Below, piece by piece: positions 1,077-26,617 of a stretch of DNA of 27,571 nucleotides. The stretch lies in IMG/VR virus record IMGVR_UViG_3300007960_000138, positions 1 through 27,571 of that record. One strand, written 5' to 3'. Positions within the stretch are counted from its first letter, which is position 1, and each line of letters begins with the position of its first letter. The notes under the pieces were generated by a model that searched no databases, was not told where the DNA came from, and was given only the letters and a program-made list of their open reading frames with translations. This DNA comes from a virus. A program made the position numbers and the translations under genes.

Positions 1077-1230
1077 GGCTAGCGGGAGTTTCGTCACAGA
1101 TGTCCCGGTAAGATCAGCCGATCAGCGGGAGGTTTCGTCACAGATAAGGGGGTTTCGTCACAGTTTTGGCACGACCAAATGACGAAACCTCCAGCGCGTT
1201 GTAGCCCCCTAAGCTCGGAGGTTCCCTGGA

Positions 1231-1249
1231 CTTACTCTTTTCTTTTTTC
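1231..1249. other. T-rich tract, possible DNA unwinding element
   Basis: A run of T with scattered C sits in an otherwise G+C-rich region, midway between the two iteron groups. Its position and composition fit the melting element of an iteron origin. The assignment depends on the origin hypothesis. Confidence 0.4.
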
Positions 1250-1277
1250 AGAGAGGGGTGGTTTTGGCACAGAAACA

Positions 1278-1290
1278 GGGGGTGTCCCCC
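1278..1290 (-). terminator. Weak candidate terminator after the primase operon
   Basis: On the minus strand GGGGG-ACA-CCCCC forms a short strong stem, followed by TGTTTCTG. It lies 167 bases past the primase stop codon, so it could end the leftward replication transcript before the methyltransferase promoter. The U-tract is poor and the loop is tight. It could equally be part of origin structure. Confidence 0.3.
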
Positions 1291-1400
1291 CACCCGTGAT
1301 TCCGGGGGTCAGGGAAGGGCGGAGGGCACACCCCCTTCATTCTGTGACGAAACCTACCCCGACCAGCGCAAGGCTCGGCCTGCCCTTAGGTTACGCCAAC

Positions 1401-1432
1401 GAGGTTTCGTCATTTCGTTGTGACGAAACCTC
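1401..1432. repeat. Perfect 12-bp inverted repeat made of two iterons
   Basis: GAGGTTTCGTCA (1401-1412) and TGACGAAACCTC (1421-1432) are exact reverse complements separated by 8 bp. The pair gives a dyad site suited to a dimeric binding protein. It is the most symmetrical part of the iteron cluster. Confidence 0.8.
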
Positions 1433-1456
1433 GCCGGGCGTGACGAAACCTCCGCG

Positions 1457-3727
1457 TCAGTCATGGTGCTCCAGGGCGACGTAGGCGGTGCGCGAGCGGC
1501 CTCCGGCAGCCGTCGTGCCCATCTCTACTAGGGAGATGTCCTGCCCGTCGATGAGAACCTGGAGCACCTCGGCCCGCTCCTTCGGGGTCAGCTTCCGGTA
1601 GCAGGTCACTCGACCGAGATCCCTCAGGGTCAGGCCGCGCTCGCCCGACTGGGCGATTACAGAGTAGACCGCCTTCACCTTCGCGTCGAACGGCGAGTCC
1701 GCTACGACCAGGTTTACGGACTCCGTGAGTCGCCCCACCGACCACTTCACTAGATCGATGGCGTACTTGGCGCAGGCCGAGTCAATCCTGGGATCGCGGG
1801 GATCGGTTGCTACCGCAGCTACCAGGGCCAGCTTGTCGGCGTGCTCCCAGGCTCGGTTCCATAGCGCCTCCATCCCGGTCCCTCGCGTGTCGCTCATGAG
1901 GTTGCCGATCTCGGCGTCGAACTGGTCGAACATTGCCCCGGCCTCGGGGGTCTTGCTGACCGTGTAGGGCGCTGCCGGGTTCACGGCCTGGAGGTTGCCC
2001 GAGCCCTTCGGATGACGGGCTACACGAATCCAGTCTAGGATCTTGCGAGGTACGGTCGTGTCGCCGGGAGTCGCCTTCTCGGGCCTCATCAGATCAGTCG
2101 GAATGACCAGCAGCCGGTTCAAGTATCCGCTGAGGATGTGCTTGCTCCGCATCGCGGAGTAGAAGGTCTCAGGGGTAGTCGTGGCGTGGATGTTTACGCA
2201 CGGGTACTCGATGACGACTCGCGGCCTCTTGTCCTGATCAGCGTACTCAGTTCCGATGTAGACGTCGCTGGCTGAGCTAAACAGCTTCATGAAGATGCTC
2301 ATGATCGCCGCCACATGGCCGCCGCTATTCGGGTTCTGTACGGCCTCCATGAGCATCCCGAACTCGTCGAGCTGAAACAGCACGCTAGGCGACATCCACA
2401 CCCTGGTAAGGATGGCCTGTCCGCTGGCCAGCTCCTCGCCGCCGATGAGGTCGTCTAGATCAGCGGCGTGGAGGATCCGCTTCACGGCGCTACGCGGGTG
2501 ATTCTTCCCGCATCCGGTAGGCCCTGTGCCCACCAGATAGAGGTTGGTGCGCAGGCCCGTCTCTGTGTCGTAATGCCTGCCGCACACCGTAGCCGCCAGC
2601 GACATGGCCGCGTTGACGGCCAGAACAGGCTGGGGTCTCACCGCCGTACTCGTGATGTAGTCCGCGATGTCGGAAAGGATTCCGGGAGGTCGCAGCAGAT
2701 AATCCGGGATCTTCTTCGACGCGCCGCTAACGCGCTTCACCTTGACCGTGGAGATGTGCGCGGCTGAGGCTGCGCCGTCCGCTACAGGCGGCTCCCGGGT
2801 GGCTTTAGCCATTCCGTACACCGTGGCCAGCGTGACCGCGTTACTGCGGTCGTTCTTGAACGACCCCCACACTCTCGCGCTGTCCGCCGCGTCGTACTTA
2901 TGGGAGAGCTGAGCCCAGGTGTCCCAGATCCGGTACCCCCTCGTGCCGGGATCGGCGGAATGAATAGCCATCCCGACCCTGATCCACACGCTGCGGTCAT
3001 CGCTGCTGATCCGGTTGAGAGCTTCCGTCAGCTCCACCACCTGCCTCTCCGTCAGGCCGTCGCCAGCATTGAGGCCTGGAGGAGCCTCCGGCGGCGCAGC
3101 CCCGTTGGACGCAGCCGCAGATTCTTCGCCCCCCAGCAGGCGTGCTAGCCACCGAGGAGGCGGTGATCCGTTGCCCGTAGGCTCGCCTTTGTCGGACCAC
3201 TCGTAGAGCCTCAGGCTGGCGTGACGCGATGGAGCAGCGACCACATAGCCGCCGTCGCTCTTGAAGTCCAAGCCTGGACCCAGGACTCTACTGGACGCCT
3301 CAAAGCCAGGGTACCGGTAGAAGACATGGAAGCCGCCTCCTCCCGTATCGCATACAGGCGAGTCGACGGACTTGTCCTGCATCTGAGCTACCAGATCAGG
3401 CGCTACCTTGTAGATGGTTTCTAGACCGCCGTTCCTGGGGTCTACGTCAAGGACGACCAGATTCGACGCTCGGCCCGTGGCTACTCCGATGTTCGCCGTA
3501 GGGTGCTTATTCCACCAGTCACGGATGGTGTCTAGATCTGTCGTAGCGCCGGTCGATCCGTTGCGGTTCAGCGGGTGCTTACCAGCCGAGGCGCATCGGC
3601 TACGCTTGGCGCAGGTGCACACCCCGTAGTCATCGACGGGAAATACTGGCAGCACCCGCCAGCCCCTTGATGCGTATGAGATCGCGTATTCCAGTAGAGG
3701 GAGTTGCTCATTACGCTGGTCATGCAT
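1457..3727 (-). CDS. Primase-polymerase / helicase fusion protein
   Basis: A replication protein of 756 residues combining primer synthesis with a P-loop motor. Residues about 8-190 are a bifunctional primase-polymerase (Prim-Pol) domain: VVLDVDPRNGG carries the metal-binding D94 and D96, and GGGFHVFYRYPG carries H134. Residues about 222-306 resemble a PriCT-type primase C-terminal helical domain (RSVWIRVGMAIHS... ARVWGSFKN). Residues about 340-620 look like a DUF3987/virulence-E-like ATPase with Walker A GPTGCGKN (402-409) and Walker B-like LFQLDEFG (450-457). The start overlaps the stop of the upstream small HTH gene by 8 bases, so the two are probably translationally coupled. The stop lies 8 bases from the nearest iteron. 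This is the likely replication initiator/primase acting at that origin, although no specific iteron-binding domain can be pointed to. Confidence 0.88.
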   Translation of the reverse strand: MHDQRNEQLPLLEYAISYASRGWRVLPVFPVDDYGVCTCAKRSRCASAGKHPLNRNGSTGATTDLDTIRDWWNKHPTANIGVATGRASNLVVLDVDPRNGGLETIYKVAPDLVAQMQDKSVDSPVCDTGGGGFHVFYRYPGFEASSRVLGPGLDFKSDGGYVVAAPSRHASLRLYEWSDKGEPTGNGSPPPRWLARLLGGEESAAASNGAAPPEAPPGLNAGDGLTERQVVELTEALNRISSDDRSVWIRVGMAIHSADPGTRGYRIWDTWAQLSHKYDAADSARVWGSFKNDRSNAVTLATVYGMAKATREPPVADGAASAAHISTVKVKRVSGASKKIPDYLLRPPGILSDIADYITSTAVRPQPVLAVNAAMSLAATVCGRHYDTETGLRTNLYLVGTGPTGCGKNHPRSAVKRILHAADLDDLIGGEELASGQAILTRVWMSPSVLFQLDEFGMLMEAVQNPNSGGHVAAIMSIFMKLFSSASDVYIGTEYADQDKRPRVVIEYPCVNIHATTTPETFYSAMRSKHILSGYLNRLLVIPTDLMRPEKATPGDTTVPRKILDWIRVARHPKGSGNLQAVNPAAPYTVSKTPEAGAMFDQFDAEIGNLMSDTRGTGMEALWNRAWEHADKLALVAAVATDPRDPRIDSACAKYAIDLVKWSVGRLTESVNLVVADSPFDAKVKAVYSVIAQSGERGLTLRDLGRVTCYRKLTPKERAEVLQVLIDGQDISLVEMGTTAAGGRSRTAYVALEHHD

Positions 3728-3938
3728 CGTTCTTCTTCATGTCCGCGATGATCGCGTGGAGCTTGCTGATCTTGGGGTCAGGGACTTCGCCGCGAGCGAA
3801 CCGAGCGAGCCAGTGGAAGTTCAGCTTGGTGCGGTACGCCAGCTCTAGCAGATCGCATCGCTGGCACCACCGCTGAGCCGCAGTAACCGACTCCCGGTAC
3901 CGCATGATGGTAAGCATTTCAGGTCTTTTCTTGGGCAT
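3720..3938 (-). CDS. Small helix-turn-helix protein
   Basis: A 72-residue protein. The segment LLELAYRTKLNFHWLARFARGEVPDPKISKLHAII (about 30-64) reads as a lambda-Cro/HTH-type DNA-binding unit: a helix, a turn, then the recognition-like FHWLARFARGE. A regulatory role is inferred. It lies between DUF669 and the primase and overlaps the primase start by 8 bases. The chosen ATG (3938) has no clear Shine-Dalgarno. In-frame ATGs at residues 8 and 12 are alternatives. The short 68-base gap upstream contains a CCACCG/CGGTGG inverted repeat but no convincing promoter. It could regulate the replication operon or help load the primase. Confidence 0.6.
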   Translation of the reverse strand: MPKKRPEMLTIMRYRESVTAAQRWCQRCDLLELAYRTKLNFHWLARFARGEVPDPKISKLHAIIADMKKNDA

Positions 3939-4006: not shown

Positions 4007-4465
4007 CTAGAAGGGAGGCTCGTCCGAGCCAGCCGTGGTGCCGGTACCGGAGGCAGCCGGGGCGGTCGCGGACACGGCGAAGTATCCCGCCACATCGTTG
4101 GAGGCGTCGAACTCAGGCGTGGCCTTCCGCACCTTGAGCTTGCACCCGATCCGGCGGTAGTGGAGTTGCTCCGAGTCGGTGACGTTCATCTCGCCGCAAG
4201 CGCGGCAGATCTGCGACAGGGTGCGGTTGGCGATGTCTACCGCCGCCTGATTCGGGTTCACGAGGTTCAGCCGGTCCCAGACTCGTCGCCCCTTGAACTC
4301 CCCGGTCTGGACTTCCAGCGTGAGCTGGAGGTACTGGCCGAGGCCGTTCTTCGTGGTCTTCATCTCGGACTCGATGATCTCGACCTCGTACTTGCCAGCA
4401 GGCAAGGGGTCGTAGTTGTCAGCCGGGTCGTGGGTGTTCGCGTCGAACGCGGTGGGGAGTTTCAT
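4007..4465 (-). CDS. DUF669 protein, probable single-strand DNA-binding partner
   Basis: A 152-residue protein recognisable as DUF669 (Pfam PF05037) from its N-terminal FDANTHDPADNYDPLPAGKYEVEIIESEMKTTKN and the following GQYLQLTLEVQTGEFKGRRVWDRLNL. It then has a helical segment with QICRACG. The C-terminus is low-complexity, Ala/Thr/Gly-rich and ends in DEPPF, an acidic hydrophobic tip like the partner-binding tail of single-strand binding proteins. In phages such genes sit next to RecA-fold ATPases and exonucleases and are thought to coat single-stranded DNA. Here the ATG overlaps the stop of the ATPase gene as ATGA, which supports a joint role in recombination. Binding activity is inferred from family and context. 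Confidence 0.78.
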   Translation of the reverse strand: MKLPTAFDANTHDPADNYDPLPAGKYEVEIIESEMKTTKNGLGQYLQLTLEVQTGEFKGRRVWDRLNLVNPNQAAVDIANRTLSQICRACGEMNVTDSEQLHYRRIGCKLKVRKATPEFDASNDVAGYFAVSATAPAASGTGTTAGSDEPPF

Positions 4466-5259
4466 GATTCAGTCGTTTCTTGTGTCGGTTGGTTAGTGCC
4501 GCGCACCGAGTTGATGGCGGCGGTGAGTTCCTTGGCGTAGTCGCTCCAGGACAGCATGATGCTCTCAGGAAGCTCGTAGCGCGACTTGGCTTGGAAGGCT
4601 GCCCGTTCCGTGAGGTGGAGCATGCGCTGTCCGGTGGACACCCCGCGTCGAGTCTTCTTGTTGAATCCAGCGTCGGTCTCCTTGACCACCACTCGGTGGT
4701 TCGCGAAGCCTACGATGTCGGCCCACTCCTGGACCACCCCTGAGGCCCGAGCGTTCAGCTTGAGCTGGTAGCGGTCGTAGGGGTCGCTCTCGGGAGAGTC
4801 AAACCGCTTGATCTCCGTGTGGCAGATGATGATGCTGCCCATCCTCCGCTCCGTGCGCAGGTAGTCGAGAGCCGACAGGATCTTGCGCCAGTGCTCCAGG
4901 GCCAGGACGTAGCCCTTGCCGTACCCGAAGTCCTCGATGGTCTCATGGCCGTTCACCTTGGCGGTGTGCGCCCAGATGAGCGACTCCAGCCAGTCCGCCG
5001 AGTCCAGCACGACGGTCTGGTAGTCGTGGTCGCCCGAGGCCAGCGATCTAAGCGCGTCCAGTACCTCGGCGTACACCTTGCAGAGAGGAAAGGCCGAGAC
5101 CGGGATAGCGTCGAGCCCGTCCTCGGTGGGCACGAAGATGGGGTTAGGGGCCTGGGAGGCGAAGGTCGATTTGCCTACACCGTGAGGCCCGTGGATGACC
5201 AGGCGAGGCGGCAGGGCCGCGCTCCCTGTGGTTCGGATTGAGTTCAGGTCGAATGCCAT
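4462..5259 (-). CDS. RecA-fold ATPase, Sak4-like recombination protein
   Basis: A 265-residue P-loop ATPase. Walker A is GPHGVGKST (24-32) and the Walker B strand is TVVLDSADW (82-90). There is a conserved IIICH segment near 149 and basic residues through the middle. This size and arrangement match the phage AAA_24/Sak4 group of minimal RecA-like proteins that anneal or pair single-stranded DNA with help from an SSB. The direct neighbour is a DUF669 protein and the divergent neighbour a Cas4-like nuclease, which strengthens the assignment. The ATG at 5259 has no Shine-Dalgarno. The leader before it, about 41 bases from the -10 box, is rich in repeated CAAC. A promoter on the minus strand lies at 5301-5329. 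Confidence 0.8.
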   Translation of the reverse strand: MAFDLNSIRTTGSAALPPRLVIHGPHGVGKSTFASQAPNPIFVPTEDGLDAIPVSAFPLCKVYAEVLDALRSLASGDHDYQTVVLDSADWLESLIWAHTAKVNGHETIEDFGYGKGYVLALEHWRKILSALDYLRTERRMGSIIICHTEIKRFDSPESDPYDRYQLKLNARASGVVQEWADIVGFANHRVVVKETDAGFNKKTRRGVSTGQRMLHLTERAAFQAKSRYELPESIMLSWSDYAKELTAAINSVRGTNQPTQETTES

Positions 5260-5300: not shown

Positions 5301-5329
5301 AAGGTAGCGGCCCGTGGCAGAAATGCCAA
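5301..5329 (-). promoter_or_regulatory. Leftward promoter for ATPase-DUF669-HTH-primase operon
   Basis: Minus strand: TTGGCA (5329-5324), a 17-bp spacer, TACCTT (5306-5301), continuing GTA. This gives a leader of about 35 bases that holds a GGGCT/AGCCC hairpin and a CAAC-repeat stretch before the ATG at 5259. The box sequence and spacing mirror the rightward promoter. Confidence 0.6.
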
Positions 5330-5339
5330 GCAAAAATGC

Positions 5340-5368
5340 TTGAAACTTCCGACCCAACCGGCTACCTT
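5340..5368 (+). promoter_or_regulatory. Rightward promoter for Cas4-like nuclease, leaderless type
   Basis: TTGAAA (5340-5345), a 17-bp spacer and TACCTT (5363-5368) are followed by 6 bp and then the ATG at 5375, so the transcript should begin at or beside the start codon. No Shine-Dalgarno is present. The -35 is separated from the leftward -35 by 10 bp. Confidence 0.6.
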
Positions 5369-5374
5369 GTAAGC

Positions 5375-6370
5375 ATGGCAAAACTACCCAAGAAGTCACG
5401 CTGCGCGACCGGAATCGTCGCAGCGGTCTACCAAGCGCTGGAGAAGCGTGAGGCTGAAAGTAAGCCTCGCACTCACCTGGGGGCATCGCAGATCGGTAAG
5501 TCCTGTAGCCGCGAGCTGTGGTACTCGTTCAGGCGATGCCACACCTCTCAGTTCAGCGGCAGAATCATCCGGGTATTCGCGACCGGTCATCTCCAGGAGC
5601 CTCGGATCATCGAGGACTTGGAGGCCGCTGGAATGAAAGTAGGGAAGTCGCAGAAGTGGTTTCCTGAACCTGAGACCGACGGACACTTCAGCGGAAGCAT
5701 TGATGGCGTGGTCTGGGGCGTACCCGGATATCCCGACATCCCTCACCTGCTGGAGATCAAGACCTCCAAGGCGAGCTACTGGAGATCCCTGGAGAAGCAT
5801 GGGGTAGCCAAGGCGGTGCCAGCCCACTACGCTCAGATGCAGACCTACATGAGATGGGCCGGGCTGACTCGCGCGCTCTACGTGAGCGCGAACAAGGACA
5901 CCGACGAGCTTTACATCGAGCGCGTGAAGTACGACGAGAAGGCATCACTGGCCTGCCTCGATGTAGCCAAGGCCGTGATCTACAGCCACGATCCTCTGCC
6001 CAAGATCAGCGAAGATCCCAAGTGGTTTGAGTGCCGCTGGTGCTCGGCGCACTCGATCTGCCACGGCGAGGAGATCCCCCCTCCGCATTGCCGCAACTGC
6101 GTCCAAGCAACGCCGATTGCCGACGGGCGGTGGTCGTGCGAGGCCGGAGGCCCTATTGATGACGGGCTGTGCGATCGCCACGCGATGCTGCCCTCACTGG
6201 TCAAGAAATGCCGGGTGGTCGACGCGACGAGCGGTGGCATCGTCTACGCCGTGGATGGCGCGGAAGGCCGTAGGTTCTATAACGGAGATCCGGCCAAATG
6301 TCCTCCGGACCTCCCTCGCGTCAACAGCGCCGACCTGAGCGCTGCGGTTAGCGTAGAGCTAGAGGTCTAG
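5375..6370 (+). CDS. Cas4-like PD-(D/E)XK exonuclease with Fe-S cysteines
   Basis: A 331-residue nuclease and the only convincing rightward gene. The fold is shown by GSIDGV (D110), LLEIKTSK (E127, K129) and the QMQTYM motif (154-159). An Fe-S staple is suggested by C44 in SCSRELWY plus C220, C223 and C229 in CRWCSAHSIC, the pattern of Cas4/AddB nucleases. A second C-terminal cluster (C239, C242, C255, C266, H269) looks like an added zinc knuckle, as in phage exonucleases of this group. It likely resects DNA ends for the adjacent RecA-fold ATPase and DUF669 protein. The open frame extends upstream to 5195, but that part runs over the ATPase gene and the promoters. The ATG at 5375 is preferred because it lies 6 bp after the -10 box. 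It ends one base from the convergent gene. Confidence 0.85.
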   Translation: MAKLPKKSRCATGIVAAVYQALEKREAESKPRTHLGASQIGKSCSRELWYSFRRCHTSQFSGRIIRVFATGHLQEPRIIEDLEAAGMKVGKSQKWFPEPETDGHFSGSIDGVVWGVPGYPDIPHLLEIKTSKASYWRSLEKHGVAKAVPAHYAQMQTYMRWAGLTRALYVSANKDTDELYIERVKYDEKASLACLDVAKAVIYSHDPLPKISEDPKWFECRWCSAHSICHGEEIPPPHCRNCVQATPIADGRWSCEAGGPIDDGLCDRHAMLPSLVKKCRVVDATSGGIVYAVDGAEGRRFYNGDPAKCPPDLPRVNSADLSAAVSVELEV

Positions 6371-6371
6371 C

Positions 6372-6614
6372 CTACTCCGACCCGTAGATGTCTAGGAGGT
6401 TTTCGCAGATCTGGAGCAGGTACCCCTGGATGGAGTCGTGACCTCTGTGCTTACGCACGATGGCGTGGAGCCTAGCACGATCACCCTTGTCTACTAGCAG
6501 GTAGATCTGCTCCTTGGACTCACGGTACTTGTAGACGCTCCTGCGGGTTCGTGCGCGTCTAGCGGCGGCGTCTCCGCTATCCTCTGATTTGAGCGGGTCG
6601 CTATCTATCGACAT
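6372..6614 (-). CDS. Small basic protein, possibly ribbon-helix-helix
   Basis: An 80-residue protein that I do not recognise by name. After a charged, disordered-looking N-terminus, the segment KEQIYLLVDKGDRARLHAIVRKHRGHDSIQGYLLQICENLL (about 38-78) alternates a short strand with two helices. This resembles ribbon-helix-helix DNA-binding proteins in which a lysine-glycine turn precedes the first helix (inference). The start at 6614 is chosen for its strong GGAGG site about 7 bases upstream; an open frame continues upstream without such a site. The stop codon is separated by a single base from the stop of the convergent nuclease gene. Confidence 0.6.
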   Translation of the reverse strand: MSIDSDPLKSEDSGDAAARRARTRRSVYKYRESKEQIYLLVDKGDRARLHAIVRKHRGHDSIQGYLLQICENLLDIYGSE

Positions 6615-6636
6615 GGGGTTCCTCCAGTATGGAAGC

Positions 6637-6706
6637 GCGGCGGTCGCCGTTACCGTGAGTCGTTCCTCCCCATCGGAGATCTTCTCTTGGTTGCGACGAC
6701 CGCCGC
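6637..6706. repeat. 10-bp inverted repeat in leader of 6372-6614
   Basis: GCGGCGGTCG (6637-6646) and CGACCGCCGC (6697-6706) are exact reverse complements 50 bases apart. They lie in the 109-base stretch between the small membrane ORF and the start of the ribbon-helix-helix-like gene. On minus-strand RNA they could form a long-range stem just upstream of the ribosome-binding site. No -10/-35 pair of the type seen elsewhere was found here. Confidence 0.4.
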
Positions 6707-6723
6707 TGGTCACACGGTGGGTT

Positions 6724-6834
6724 TTACATCATCGCGGCTGCGAAAGTGAGCAGCCCGATCCAGAAGGCGGTTTCCACCTTCAGCATGGTGAGGCTGTGCG
6801 CCTTCGCCCTAGCCTTGGTGCGGGTAGGCTTCAC
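6724..6834 (-). CDS. Putative 36-residue membrane protein
   Basis: A short open frame beginning with GTG at 6834 overlaps the stop codon of the upstream gene as GTGA, the junction type used throughout this genome. The product has a strongly basic N-terminus (KPTRTKARAKAH) and a hydrophobic C-terminus (FWIGLLTFAAAMM), so it would insert with the basic end inside the cell. Function is unknown. The coupling to the previous gene and the clean basic/hydrophobic layout argue that it is real. It is not conserved in any family I can name. Confidence 0.45.
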   Translation of the reverse strand: MKPTRTKARAKAHSLTMLKVETAFWIGLLTFAAAMM

Positions 6835-7439
6835 GCTTCCATCTCCTTATTCAGTCGGTCGATCTCATCCTTGCGGTCGCGCTCCCAGGCGCGCGCGAGT
6901 TCCATGATCGCATCGCACGACCCCAGGAAGTCGATCTTCATCTCCTCGCCGAGGATCTTACCCCAGTTGCGGCCCTTGAAGTCAATCAGGGTGGTCATCG
7001 CCATCAGCAGATCTACGGGGCCAGCGATCTCGCTGCGCTTCGTAGACACCTCGATCTGCGAAGCCATGATCGGGTAGTCGGAGTGCTGGAGTACCGCAGC
7101 TACCTCGGCGGCGTGTCGGGGCTCACCTCCCTTACTCCAGATAAGGCAGGTTCCATGGCAGGCCATGTTGGCCATGCTCAGTGTTTGAGCCCAGTTCCGC
7201 GCAGAGTGTTCGATGGCCTCCGGTATGCTCCGGTCGCCAACCTTCTCGTCGAGGTCGCTCGCCAGCCCCGAGAGGTCATCAAGGCAGCTCGGATCGAGGT
7301 GGGTCTTCACCTGCCTCTCCAGTTCCTCCAGGCCTCCCAAGCAGTTGAGAGCCGCCGCGTTGAATAGGCTGGCCAGTCGGCACAGCTTCTCCCTGCTAAG
7401 CAGCTCGGGAATGTGGATGTCAGGGTTGGGGTTGCTCAT
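6831..7439 (-). CDS. Unknown 202-residue protein, first gene of a small operon
   Basis: No family is recognised. The sequence looks mostly helical, soluble and acidic, with scattered cysteines (for example MACHGTCLIW around 113-122) and a highly charged C-terminal helix (ELARAWERDRKDEIDRLNKEMEA). It has no signal peptide or membrane segment. It is the first gene after the structured region that ends the late operon, and it has its own promoter whose -10 box ends 7 bases before the ATG. A GGAG directly touches the ATG, too close to work as a normal ribosome-binding site. This fits leaderless translation. Downstream are a small membrane ORF and a ribbon-helix-helix-like gene, so this may be an early or host-interaction operon (inference). 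Confidence 0.65.
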   Translation of the reverse strand: MSNPNPDIHIPELLSREKLCRLASLFNAAALNCLGGLEELERQVKTHLDPSCLDDLSGLASDLDEKVGDRSIPEAIEHSARNWAQTLSMANMACHGTCLIWSKGGEPRHAAEVAAVLQHSDYPIMASQIEVSTKRSEIAGPVDLLMAMTTLIDFKGRNWGKILGEEMKIDFLGSCDAIMELARAWERDRKDEIDRLNKEMEA

Positions 7440-7446
7440 CTCCTTT

Positions 7447-7475
7447 ACCTTAAACCCGATGACTCAGTAAGTCAA
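7447..7475 (-). promoter_or_regulatory. Promoter of 6831-7439 operon, leaderless type
   Basis: Minus strand: TTGACT (7475-7470), a 17-bp spacer, TAAGGT (7452-7447), then 7 bp and the ATG at 7439. It shares its -35 with the promoter at 1048-1076 and its spacing with all the intergenic promoters found here. Confidence 0.62.
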
Positions 7476-7503
7476 GAGGTTTTCCGAGAGTTTTCGAGGC
7501 GAT

Positions 7504-7540
7504 GCCGTGGGCCGCTAGCGGCCCGTTGGCGGGCCACGGC
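7504..7540. repeat. Nested palindromes after the late operon
   Basis: GCCGTGG (7504-7510) pairs with CCACGGC (7534-7540) around a 16-bp perfect palindrome, GGGCCGCTAGCGGCCC (7509-7524). GGCCCG/CGGGCC (7520-7533) offers an alternative hairpin. The element sits between the last gene of the late operon and the next promoter, where a terminator or processing site is expected. No T-run follows on the minus strand, so classical intrinsic termination is doubtful. Confidence 0.55.
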
Positions 7541-7551
7541 TCGCCCCGTCC

Positions 7552-7580
7552 CCGTCTCCCCCTCGGGAGGCGGTCTTTCT
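7552..7580 (+). terminator. Hairpin with short T-rich tail, weak candidate terminator
   Basis: CCGTCTCCC (7552-7560), loop CCTC, then GGGAGGCGG (7565-7573) forms a 9-bp stem with one G-U pair, followed by TCTTTCT on the plus strand. As a terminator it would stop rightward transcription, although no rightward gene is known just upstream. On the minus strand it may only add structure to the end of the late transcript. Confidence 0.3.
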
Positions 7581-7592
7581 CTGATCGCCGCA

Positions 7593-7835
7593 CTACGCCC
7601 CCTTATCGCCGGCCTCAGGCGAAACTACCCGATTTAGGCTTACCCAGGCGTCGGGTGCGGGCGAGGCTTCGCCTGAGGCCCACCGTCTGAATGACGTAAC
7701 AGGTAGCCCGGCCTTGGCGCAAGCGTCTCGGGGTGTCAGCCCTCGGCGCGTGATCTTCTTGCGCATCCGGTCGATCTCTTCATGACTCAGGCACAGCCTG
7801 GTGCGCCCATAGCGGTCCTTGAACATTTTGGGCAT
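7593..7835 (-). CDS. Small helix-turn-helix protein at end of late operon
   Basis: An 80-residue basic protein. SHEEIDRMRKKITRRGLTPRDACAKAGLPVTSFRRWASGEASPAP (about 17-61) reads as a helix-turn-helix in which VTSFRRWASGE is the recognition region, comparable to FHWLARFARGE of the small protein at 3720-3938. DNA binding is inferred. An AGGAGA site about 8 bases before the ATG supports the start, and only 3 bases separate it from the upstream lipoprotein gene. The last part of the gene overlaps a 13-bp inverted repeat. A role in late gene control is possible; nothing in the sequence shows its target. Confidence 0.6.
   Translation of the reverse strand: MPKMFKDRYGRTRLCLSHEEIDRMRKKITRRGLTPRDACAKAGLPVTSFRRWASGEASPAPDAWVSLNRVVSPEAGDKGA
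7611..7680. repeat. 13-bp inverted repeat inside the HTH gene
   Basis: GGCCTCAGGCGAA (7611-7623) and TTCGCCTGAGGCC (7668-7680) are exact reverse complements with a 44-base spacer, within the last 90 bases of the coding sequence. Together with the palindromes at 7504-7580 they make the end of the late operon unusually structured. Confidence 0.65.
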
Positions 7836-26017: not shown

Positions 26018-26617
26018 TTAGACCGCGCCTTCCTCGTCGTCGTCTCCCGGCAGCGGTCGGCCAGGAACACGGGCGATCTCGCGCTTGTCCACGTAGAACT
26101 CGTGGCCGCACGACGGACACATAAGCTCGTGAAAGTGGCCGATTGAGGCGTTGTAGAGAACCTCGTACTGCTGGTTCATCTGCTCTTCGGTCTGCTGGAT
26201 CTGCTCCTGGGACGCGATCGGCTTGGACGCCGCCTGGTGTAGCAGGCGGTCGAGGTCCATGTTCCCGAAGTGAGTCTGAAGCTCGGCCAGCTCCTCGATC
26301 TCACGCAGCTCAGCCACGAGAGCGTCCATGTTCCACGCCGCCAGCTCGCCGCTCTTGTTGTCCGCGATGCGGTACTCCTTGGCGAGCTGCGGGGTGAGGT
26401 CTGCGACGTAGACCGGGACTGTCTTCATCTCCAGACGGACGGCGGCTTTGTATCGCGTGTGACCCGCGATGATGACCCCCTTGCTGTCCACCACGATAGG
26501 GACGTTGAACCCGTACCTCTCGATAGAGTCCATGACGCTGTTCACCGCGTTCTCGTTGTTGCGCGGATTGCGCCAATACGGAACGACCTGCTCAATCGGA
26601 CGGTCTTCTACCTTCAT
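26018..26617 (-). CDS. ParB/Srx-like protein with zinc-knuckle-like C-terminus
   Basis: A 199-residue protein. Residues about 1-95 are a ParB N-terminal-like domain: VVPYWRNPRNNENAVNSVMDSIERYGFNVPIVVDSKGVIIAGHTRYKAA holds the GHTRYKAA nucleotide-binding motif, and RIADNKSGELAAWNMDAL follows. The C-terminal part is helical, with a glutamine-rich segment, and ends in MCPSCGHEFYVDKREI, a single CxxC. There is no partner ParA and no DNA-binding helix-turn-helix of true partition ParB, so plasmid partition is unlikely. Phages often carry such proteins beside DNA methyltransferases. The ATG overlaps the methyltransferase stop as ATGA, with GGAGG some 14 bases upstream. Biochemical role unknown; CTPase/nuclease activity cannot be judged. 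Confidence 0.8.
   Translation of the reverse strand: MKVEDRPIEQVVPYWRNPRNNENAVNSVMDSIERYGFNVPIVVDSKGVIIAGHTRYKAAVRLEMKTVPVYVADLTPQLAKEYRIADNKSGELAAWNMDALVAELREIEELAELQTHFGNMDLDRLLHQAASKPIASQEQIQQTEEQMNQQYEVLYNASIGHFHELMCPSCGHEFYVDKREIARVPGRPLPGDDDEEGAV

Follow-up and report, generated by a model that had tools for sequence, protein, structure and literature searches.

A cluster of eight iterons directly 3′ of a Prim-Pol/DUF3987 gene is very probably a phage replication origin bound by the tail end of the primase-helicase

The window analyzed here is the entire 27,571-base IMG/VR virus record IMGVR_UViG_3300007960_000138. A RusA-like resolvase gene (3-398, Pfam/PHROGs), cut by the contig end, is followed by an open reading frame (ORF) of 207 amino acids (418-1041), for which no Pfam, PHROG, or phage match was obtained; it carries an AEPPW motif and was judged by eye to be methyltransferase-like. 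Beyond a noncoding gap of 415 bp (1042-1456) lies the gene of a 756-amino-acid protein (1457-3727, Pfam/PHROGs and model), in which Pfam placed Prim-Pol at residues 15-185, PriCT_2 at 234-307, and DUF3987 at 497-662, and which we propose to be the initiator, helicase, and primase of the phage. It is succeeded by genes for a small helix-turn-helix (HTH) protein (3720-3938), a DUF669 single-strand binding protein (4007-4465, Pfam/PHROGs), and a Sak4-like AAA ATPase (4462-5259, Pfam/PHROGs). These genes all lie on the minus strand, and the gap is bordered by the 3′ end of the Prim-Pol/DUF3987 gene on one side and by the start of ORF 418-1041 on the other. Far from this region, a ParB-like protein is encoded at 26018-26617, upstream of the terminase genes. 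The terminase matched proteins from many hosts at <50% identity, and the phage host was therefore left unassigned. Megablast of the window against phage records gave no match.

The first-pass annotation of this DNA had described eight exact copies of GTTTCGTCA in mixed orientation within the gap, four on each side of a T-rich tract. An exact-match search of the record recovered all of them between 1088 and 1449, four per orientation, and their positions bear out the arrangement in two groups: R1 (1088-1096, plus), R2 (1132-1140, plus), R3 (1152-1160, plus), and R4 (1180-1188, minus) on one side, and L1 (1345-1353, minus), L2 (1404-1412, plus), L3 (1421-1429, minus), and L4 (1441-1449, minus) on the other. 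A genome-wide search for the 9-mer had been suggested as a check on clustering, and every exact copy in the record, which is the window itself, fell in this single gap. The chance expectation in the window is 0.15, and eight copies were reached in none of 100 shuffles; the reversed pattern, used as a control, had no match in the entire record. When one mismatch was allowed, just two stray extra sites appeared. The repeat unit is longer than the 9-mer, with the consensus GAGGTTTCGTCACAG, and three degenerate iterons could be added: GTTTTGGCA at 1163 and at 1261 (as GTTTTGGCAC, 1163-1172 and 1261-1270, both plus) and GGTTACGCCA near 1390. The dyad reported at 1401-1432 is indeed perfect and formed by two iterons, L2 and L3, but its arms measure 13 bp (1400-1412 and 1421-1433) rather than 12 bp.

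Between the two groups lies the T-rich tract (1231-1255), a putative melting element. Of all 27,547 25-mers in the window, the one that begins at 1231 ranks lowest in nearest-neighbor stability. A long inverted repeat capable of forming a hairpin (1269-1345; z = -3.6 versus shuffles) sits between this tract and the left iteron group, and it might serve as a single-strand initiation site resembling that of pRN1. A GC-skew switch at about 1.1-1.45 kb, put forward earlier as a sign of an origin, was not borne out: the window skew showed no clear switch at the gap and was uninformative.

The IMG/VR database was then scanned with a query containing the motif alone (two inverted copies 5-35 bp apart), the primase being left out of the query. 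Only three contigs were recovered, and they belong to two lineages, one of the near-identical contigs L033 and L034 and the other of L035. Each contains exactly eight GTTTCGTCA copies in a single cluster of about 250 bp, located directly 3′ of a Prim-Pol/DUF3987 gene in L033 and L034 and one gene further away in L035. The expectation that the motif would recur beside the primases of relatives was met in both lineages. Single 15-mer matches in 23 IMG/VR contigs were nearly all one isolated copy and were taken as chance. Four GTTTCGTCA copies, including a 9-bp tandem pair as in L033, were also observed at the extreme end of a planctomycete metagenome-assembled genome contig (L219, 2893-2997), where the neighboring gene is cut off. 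A viral contig without a recognizable primase (L020) has a perfect 16-bp inverted repeat (TGTGACGAAACCTCGG...CCGAGGTTTCGTCACA, 5325-5378), with two copies only. No close prophage was found; an alignment profile run against 401 Sphingomonadaceae-centered genomes matched the N-terminal primase only. In the literature, the matches listed for the 9-mer comprised only primers and unrelated sequence.

A second scan, for direct copies of the motif, yielded mostly chance and tandem-repeat matches among those listed. Two of the listed contigs, L092 and L110, carry DUF3987 genes (Pfam E values of 4e-90 and 2e-88) that lack Prim-Pol, with several GTTT(C/T)GTCAG copies directly 3′ of the DUF3987 stop codon. 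No Prim-Pol gene was seen beside the listed matches of the direct-repeat scan in IMG/VR and genomes, one weak match (L128) excepted. Since L092 and L110 have no Prim-Pol, the common partner of the motif is DUF3987 together with the C-terminal winged helix, and not the primase domain. In L110 (7606-8079), the iterons 3′ of the DUF3987 gene fall inside the start of the next reading frame; such origins can therefore be partly coding and are easily missed.

To see how general the layout is, we surveyed phage records and IMG/VR, in total 58 Prim-Pol loci with near-duplicates kept, for an 8-mer occurring at least four times within 500 bp. Such a repeat was present 3′ of the primase in 31 loci and on the 5′ side in 2, and the 3′ repeat was the strict maximum of its locus in 30 of the 58. 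By this measure, a 3′ cluster is missing from the other 27, including those of CAjan, XAJ2, and several Vibrio and Pseudoalteromonas phages; several of the latter have an AT-rich noncoding gap 5′ of the primase gene instead. The iteron sequences are clade specific: GCGTGACAA in Rhizobium phages 16-3 and RHph_X2_25, CAATTCCAAA in RHph_TM3_3_14B (AP-16-3 shares the core, with fewer exact copies), GCTAACCGAC in two Synechococcus phages, CCCTATCCCC in Stenotrophomonas and Pseudomonas phages, GTTGTATA in Sphingomonas phage Kharn, and ATCCTCCCA or ATCCTTCCA in D5-type prophages. In the classic phage 16-3 (L282, 8113-8547) and in RHph_X2_25 (L289, 8113-8549), 13-14 copies of GCGTGACA were noted 3′ of a Prim-Pol gene that has a RecA-like AAA_25 helicase. 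A series of IMG/VR prophages (L305-L336) has D5-type Prim-Pol genes (Pfam on L323) with iterons of the ATCCTCCCA, ATCCTTCCA, and ACCCTTCC types directly 3′, and the 3′ origin rule therefore reaches beyond DUF3987.

Roseobacter phage CRP-821, a complete circular genome of 30 kb with a terminase related to that of the window, contains TGTATAAA seven times in a 175-bp gap 3′ of its primase, and this is the only 9-mer cluster of the genome. This bears on the idea that the cluster in the window is a copy-control or incompatibility element similar to crr of phage P4, or a secondary origin, while the main origin lies in a missing part of the genome. P4 does have two iteron regions, ori and crr, and the IMG/VR record may be a fragment. 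Nevertheless, the complete CRP-821 genome, similar in layout, offers no second cluster, and the least stable 25-mer of the window falls in the middle of the iterons; we regard this possibility as very unlikely.

An out-of-sample set was assembled from 77 DUF3987 genes in genomes chosen without the motif, as families around four host genomes. Within the 220 bp that follow the stop codon, 24 of the 77 genes had an 8-mer in three or more copies, compared with 13 of 686 other windows (p = 5e-17); for 5′ windows, the count was 2 of 73. The fourth set, from Pseudomonas, gave low scores for most of its loci, and some genes were chosen by a fallback rule, which would, if anything, dilute the signal. 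One locus found by family only, L358, has a winged helix with ARDVQR and GGRP, as in L110, and carries CTGACAAAACTGACGAAACC and GGTTTTGTCAG, the iteron of L110. In a partial Mantel analysis of 42 proteins, winged-helix identity was associated with the sharing of repeated 7-mers once the core was controlled for (r 0.19, 0 of 300 permutations), whereas core identity was not once the winged helix was controlled for (219 of 300 permutations). A DUF3987 gene with its own 3′ repeats recurs in many unrelated phages and bacterial elements. We found no paper linking DUF3987 to 3′ iterons or an origin in the open-access literature, most subscription journals and preprints being outside the scope of the search.

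Closer relatives of the L035 primase (64-81% identical) allowed iterons and proteins to be compared directly. In the six loci, L291-L296 (L291 and L035 being one contig), the iterons are conserved in number, order, and spacing, and a central AT-rich element resembling TTTTATATA is retained; within one phage, all iterons change in concert: they read GTTTCGTCA in L291, GTTTCGTCG in L295 and L296, GTTACGTCG in L292, GTTATTCAG in L293, and GTTTTTCAG in L294. In L295, about 1.3 kb of inserted genes (about 6550-7800), resembling a HicAB toxin-antitoxin pair as judged by eye only, part the primase from the origin. When the six proteins were aligned with those of L033 and the window (901 columns), a CG-to-TT change in the iteron was found to go with an Arg-to-Asn replacement in the helix-turn-helix of the winged helix, and a T-to-A change with an Arg-to-Pro replacement in the wing (GGRP becoming GGPS or GGPP). 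All four combinations of CG/TT with T/A are present, and the two features therefore vary independently. These two positions, winged-helix R/N and wing R/P, are the only fixed-difference columns across all eight proteins. When the five close relatives with full-length proteins were considered and both partitions were added together, fixed columns made up 6 of 68 positions in the winged helix versus 4 of 685 elsewhere (p = 7e-5). The pattern was spotted by eye before the whole-protein scan that served to check it, and six of the eight proteins are close; as samples few and related, they provide evidence that is strong but not final. In the absence of binding data, the observed covariation supports the view that the C-terminal domain of the helicase is what reads the iterons.

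This comparison also weighs on who binds the repeats and for what purpose. The gap is upstream of ORF 418-1041 and has dyads inside, winged helices are common in repressors, and SaPI-type origins can also be autoregulatory; the repeats could accordingly be operators through which the primase or another phage DNA-binding protein regulates ORF 418-1041 and RusA, or its own gene, with replication starting elsewhere. Yet the far-side neighbor varies among phages (RusA, VRR-NUC, NusG-like, and others) while the cluster keeps to the primase/DUF3987 gene, the GTTTCGTCA sites are not spread over other promoters, and the binder indicated by covariation is a helicase. An operator function of this kind appears unlikely to us.

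As for the binder, the first-pass annotation had offered two initiators, the Prim-Pol/helicase fusion and the small HTH protein (3720-3938). The latter could bind the iterons of a genuine origin and recruit the primase-helicase, as lambda O does DnaB, and many such phages do have a small HTH gene 5′ of their primase. Nonetheless, a profile search detected no homologue in the examined DNA of L033 and L291-L296, where the same or related iterons occur, and the HTH protein was rejected as the iteron reader; L092 and L110 have the same motif beside DUF3987 genes, and it is with the primase winged helix that the iterons covary. Its role as the iteron binder is, in our judgment, extremely improbable. 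Of the two proposals, the one naming the primase-helicase is favored by the evidence, with the C-terminal winged helix as the putative binder, and we consider the question largely settled in its favor.

The predicted structure of this protein is in part consistent with such a role. AlphaFold modeled the C-terminal 112 residues as a winged helix (pLDDT 85) with the GGR motif in the wing; the putative iteron reader, supported also by covariation, comprises residues about 679-756 (1460-1693, minus strand). The closest structures to the model were winged helices of PadR, MarR, TFIIIC, and Pol III, mixed with other folds, and no match to solved structures was significant. Confidence in the full-length model is low (mean pLDDT 64). 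Its N-terminal Prim-Pol part matches structures of pRN1 ORF904, and its helicase part matches MCM helicases weakly (best E 6.5e-5, low TM-scores), a predicted likeness that we treat as a lead. A PDB sequence search with the whole primase-helicase gave no significant match.

Taken together, the comparative evidence strongly supports an iteron origin beside the primase, as proposed at first, replication itself being unmeasured. We hold it highly likely that the gap is the phage origin and that the primase-helicase binds the iterons there through its winged helix, a view without replication or binding data behind it; the eight repeats are very probably where replication starts, as inferred from comparison. 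We infer that the C-terminal winged helix of the protein (1457-3727) would bind the GAGGTTTCGTCACAG iterons in both of the groups of four that flank the tract, and that the DUF3987 AAA+ helicase domains would assemble as rings on both iteron groups. The rings might then melt the T-rich tract (1231-1255) and move outward, and the protein's own N-terminal Prim-Pol domain may make the primers in both directions. The sites themselves, the low stability of the tract, the recurrent location 3′ of the gene, and the joint variation of iteron bases and winged-helix residues are observed; binding, ring assembly and loading, melting, priming, and direction are all inferences.

In the lambda origin, to which the locus had been likened, iterons also lie beside an AT-rich melting region. 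The lambda iterons, however, are inside the O gene, and O is not a helicase and recruits host DnaB; the window does not meet lambda-type criteria, its iterons being outside the coding region and the adjacent gene having DUF3987. In phage P4, one protein, alpha, combines primase and helicase with iteron binding through a C-terminal winged helix, as we propose for the single protein of the window, although the primase and helicase families are different and P4 has two separate iteron loci. Closer than lambda are SaPI Rep, SCCmec Cch2, and pRN1, in which the helicase doubles as the initiator and its gene is immediately followed by the origin.

SaPI Rep and SCCmec Cch2 are staphylococcal self-loading helicases whose C-terminal domain binds short iterons directly downstream of their own gene, the SaPI primase being coupled or fused to the helicase-initiator; they are thought to work by the mechanism proposed here (PMC7581432, which cites Ubeda 2007). 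In the window and its relatives, too, the helicase gene is directly followed by the iteron cluster, and in the window the AT-rich tract (1231-1255) lies between two groups of four. In contrast, the iteron sequence is unrelated, the host of the window is not known as staphylococcal, and the helicases differ in class: Cch2 is of the D5/Primase-Cterm class, Cch and SaPIbov1 Rep are of the DUF927 class, and the window helicase, to which Pfam assigns DUF3987 and not DUF927 or D5_N, is a member of neither family. ORF904 of the Sulfolobus plasmid pRN1 combines Prim-Pol, a helicase, and a C-terminal winged helix, and a replication-essential element lies directly 3′ of its gene (PMC4234260); the window shares this domain combination and has its putative origin in the same position. 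The two differ in that the window combines iterons with a hairpin located between their groups, whereas pRN1 depends on a stem-loop of 100 nt, has no identified iterons, and uses an SF3 helicase (PMC4234260). Among the relatives of the window, the conserved element is the iterons.

The domain order of the window protein matches the PrimQH type (Prim-Pol, PriCT, DUF3987, and C-terminal winged helix), with no tree separating PrimQH from all3500. As far as the available portion of that study extends, Kazlauskas 2018 (PMC5862659) predicted DUF3987 to be a helicase and suggested that the winged helix might recognize the origin, and named no binding site, whereas our analysis supplies sites and a covariation test. 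Taken as a single locus, the window adds a new case to a layout already known; what is contributed beyond earlier predictions is the inferred binding sites, their position, and the covariation.

A broader reading, to which we give only somewhat better than even chances, is that DUF3987 proteins (PF13148) are widespread iteron-reading initiator helicases with the origin directly 3′ of their genes and a readable winged-helix code, such that origins could be predicted from protein sequence. With the same confidence, the code may pair GGR in the wing with T and GGP with A, Arg in the helix with CG and Asn with TT, and, further, RDVQR with GTCAG and REVR with GTAGG. If this is true, origins would be predictable across phages, satellites, and integrated elements. 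The natural two-by-two variants of iteron and winged helix in L291-L296 are ready material for work on the coevolution of initiator and origin, and candidate origins are indicated for many phages in which the gene is annotated merely as "DNA primase" beside a gap. Comparative support is gained for the prediction, made in 2018, that such primases read the origin through their winged helix, and a Pfam domain of unknown function, present in many phages and bacterial mobile elements, acquires a concrete, if inferred, function and binding sites.
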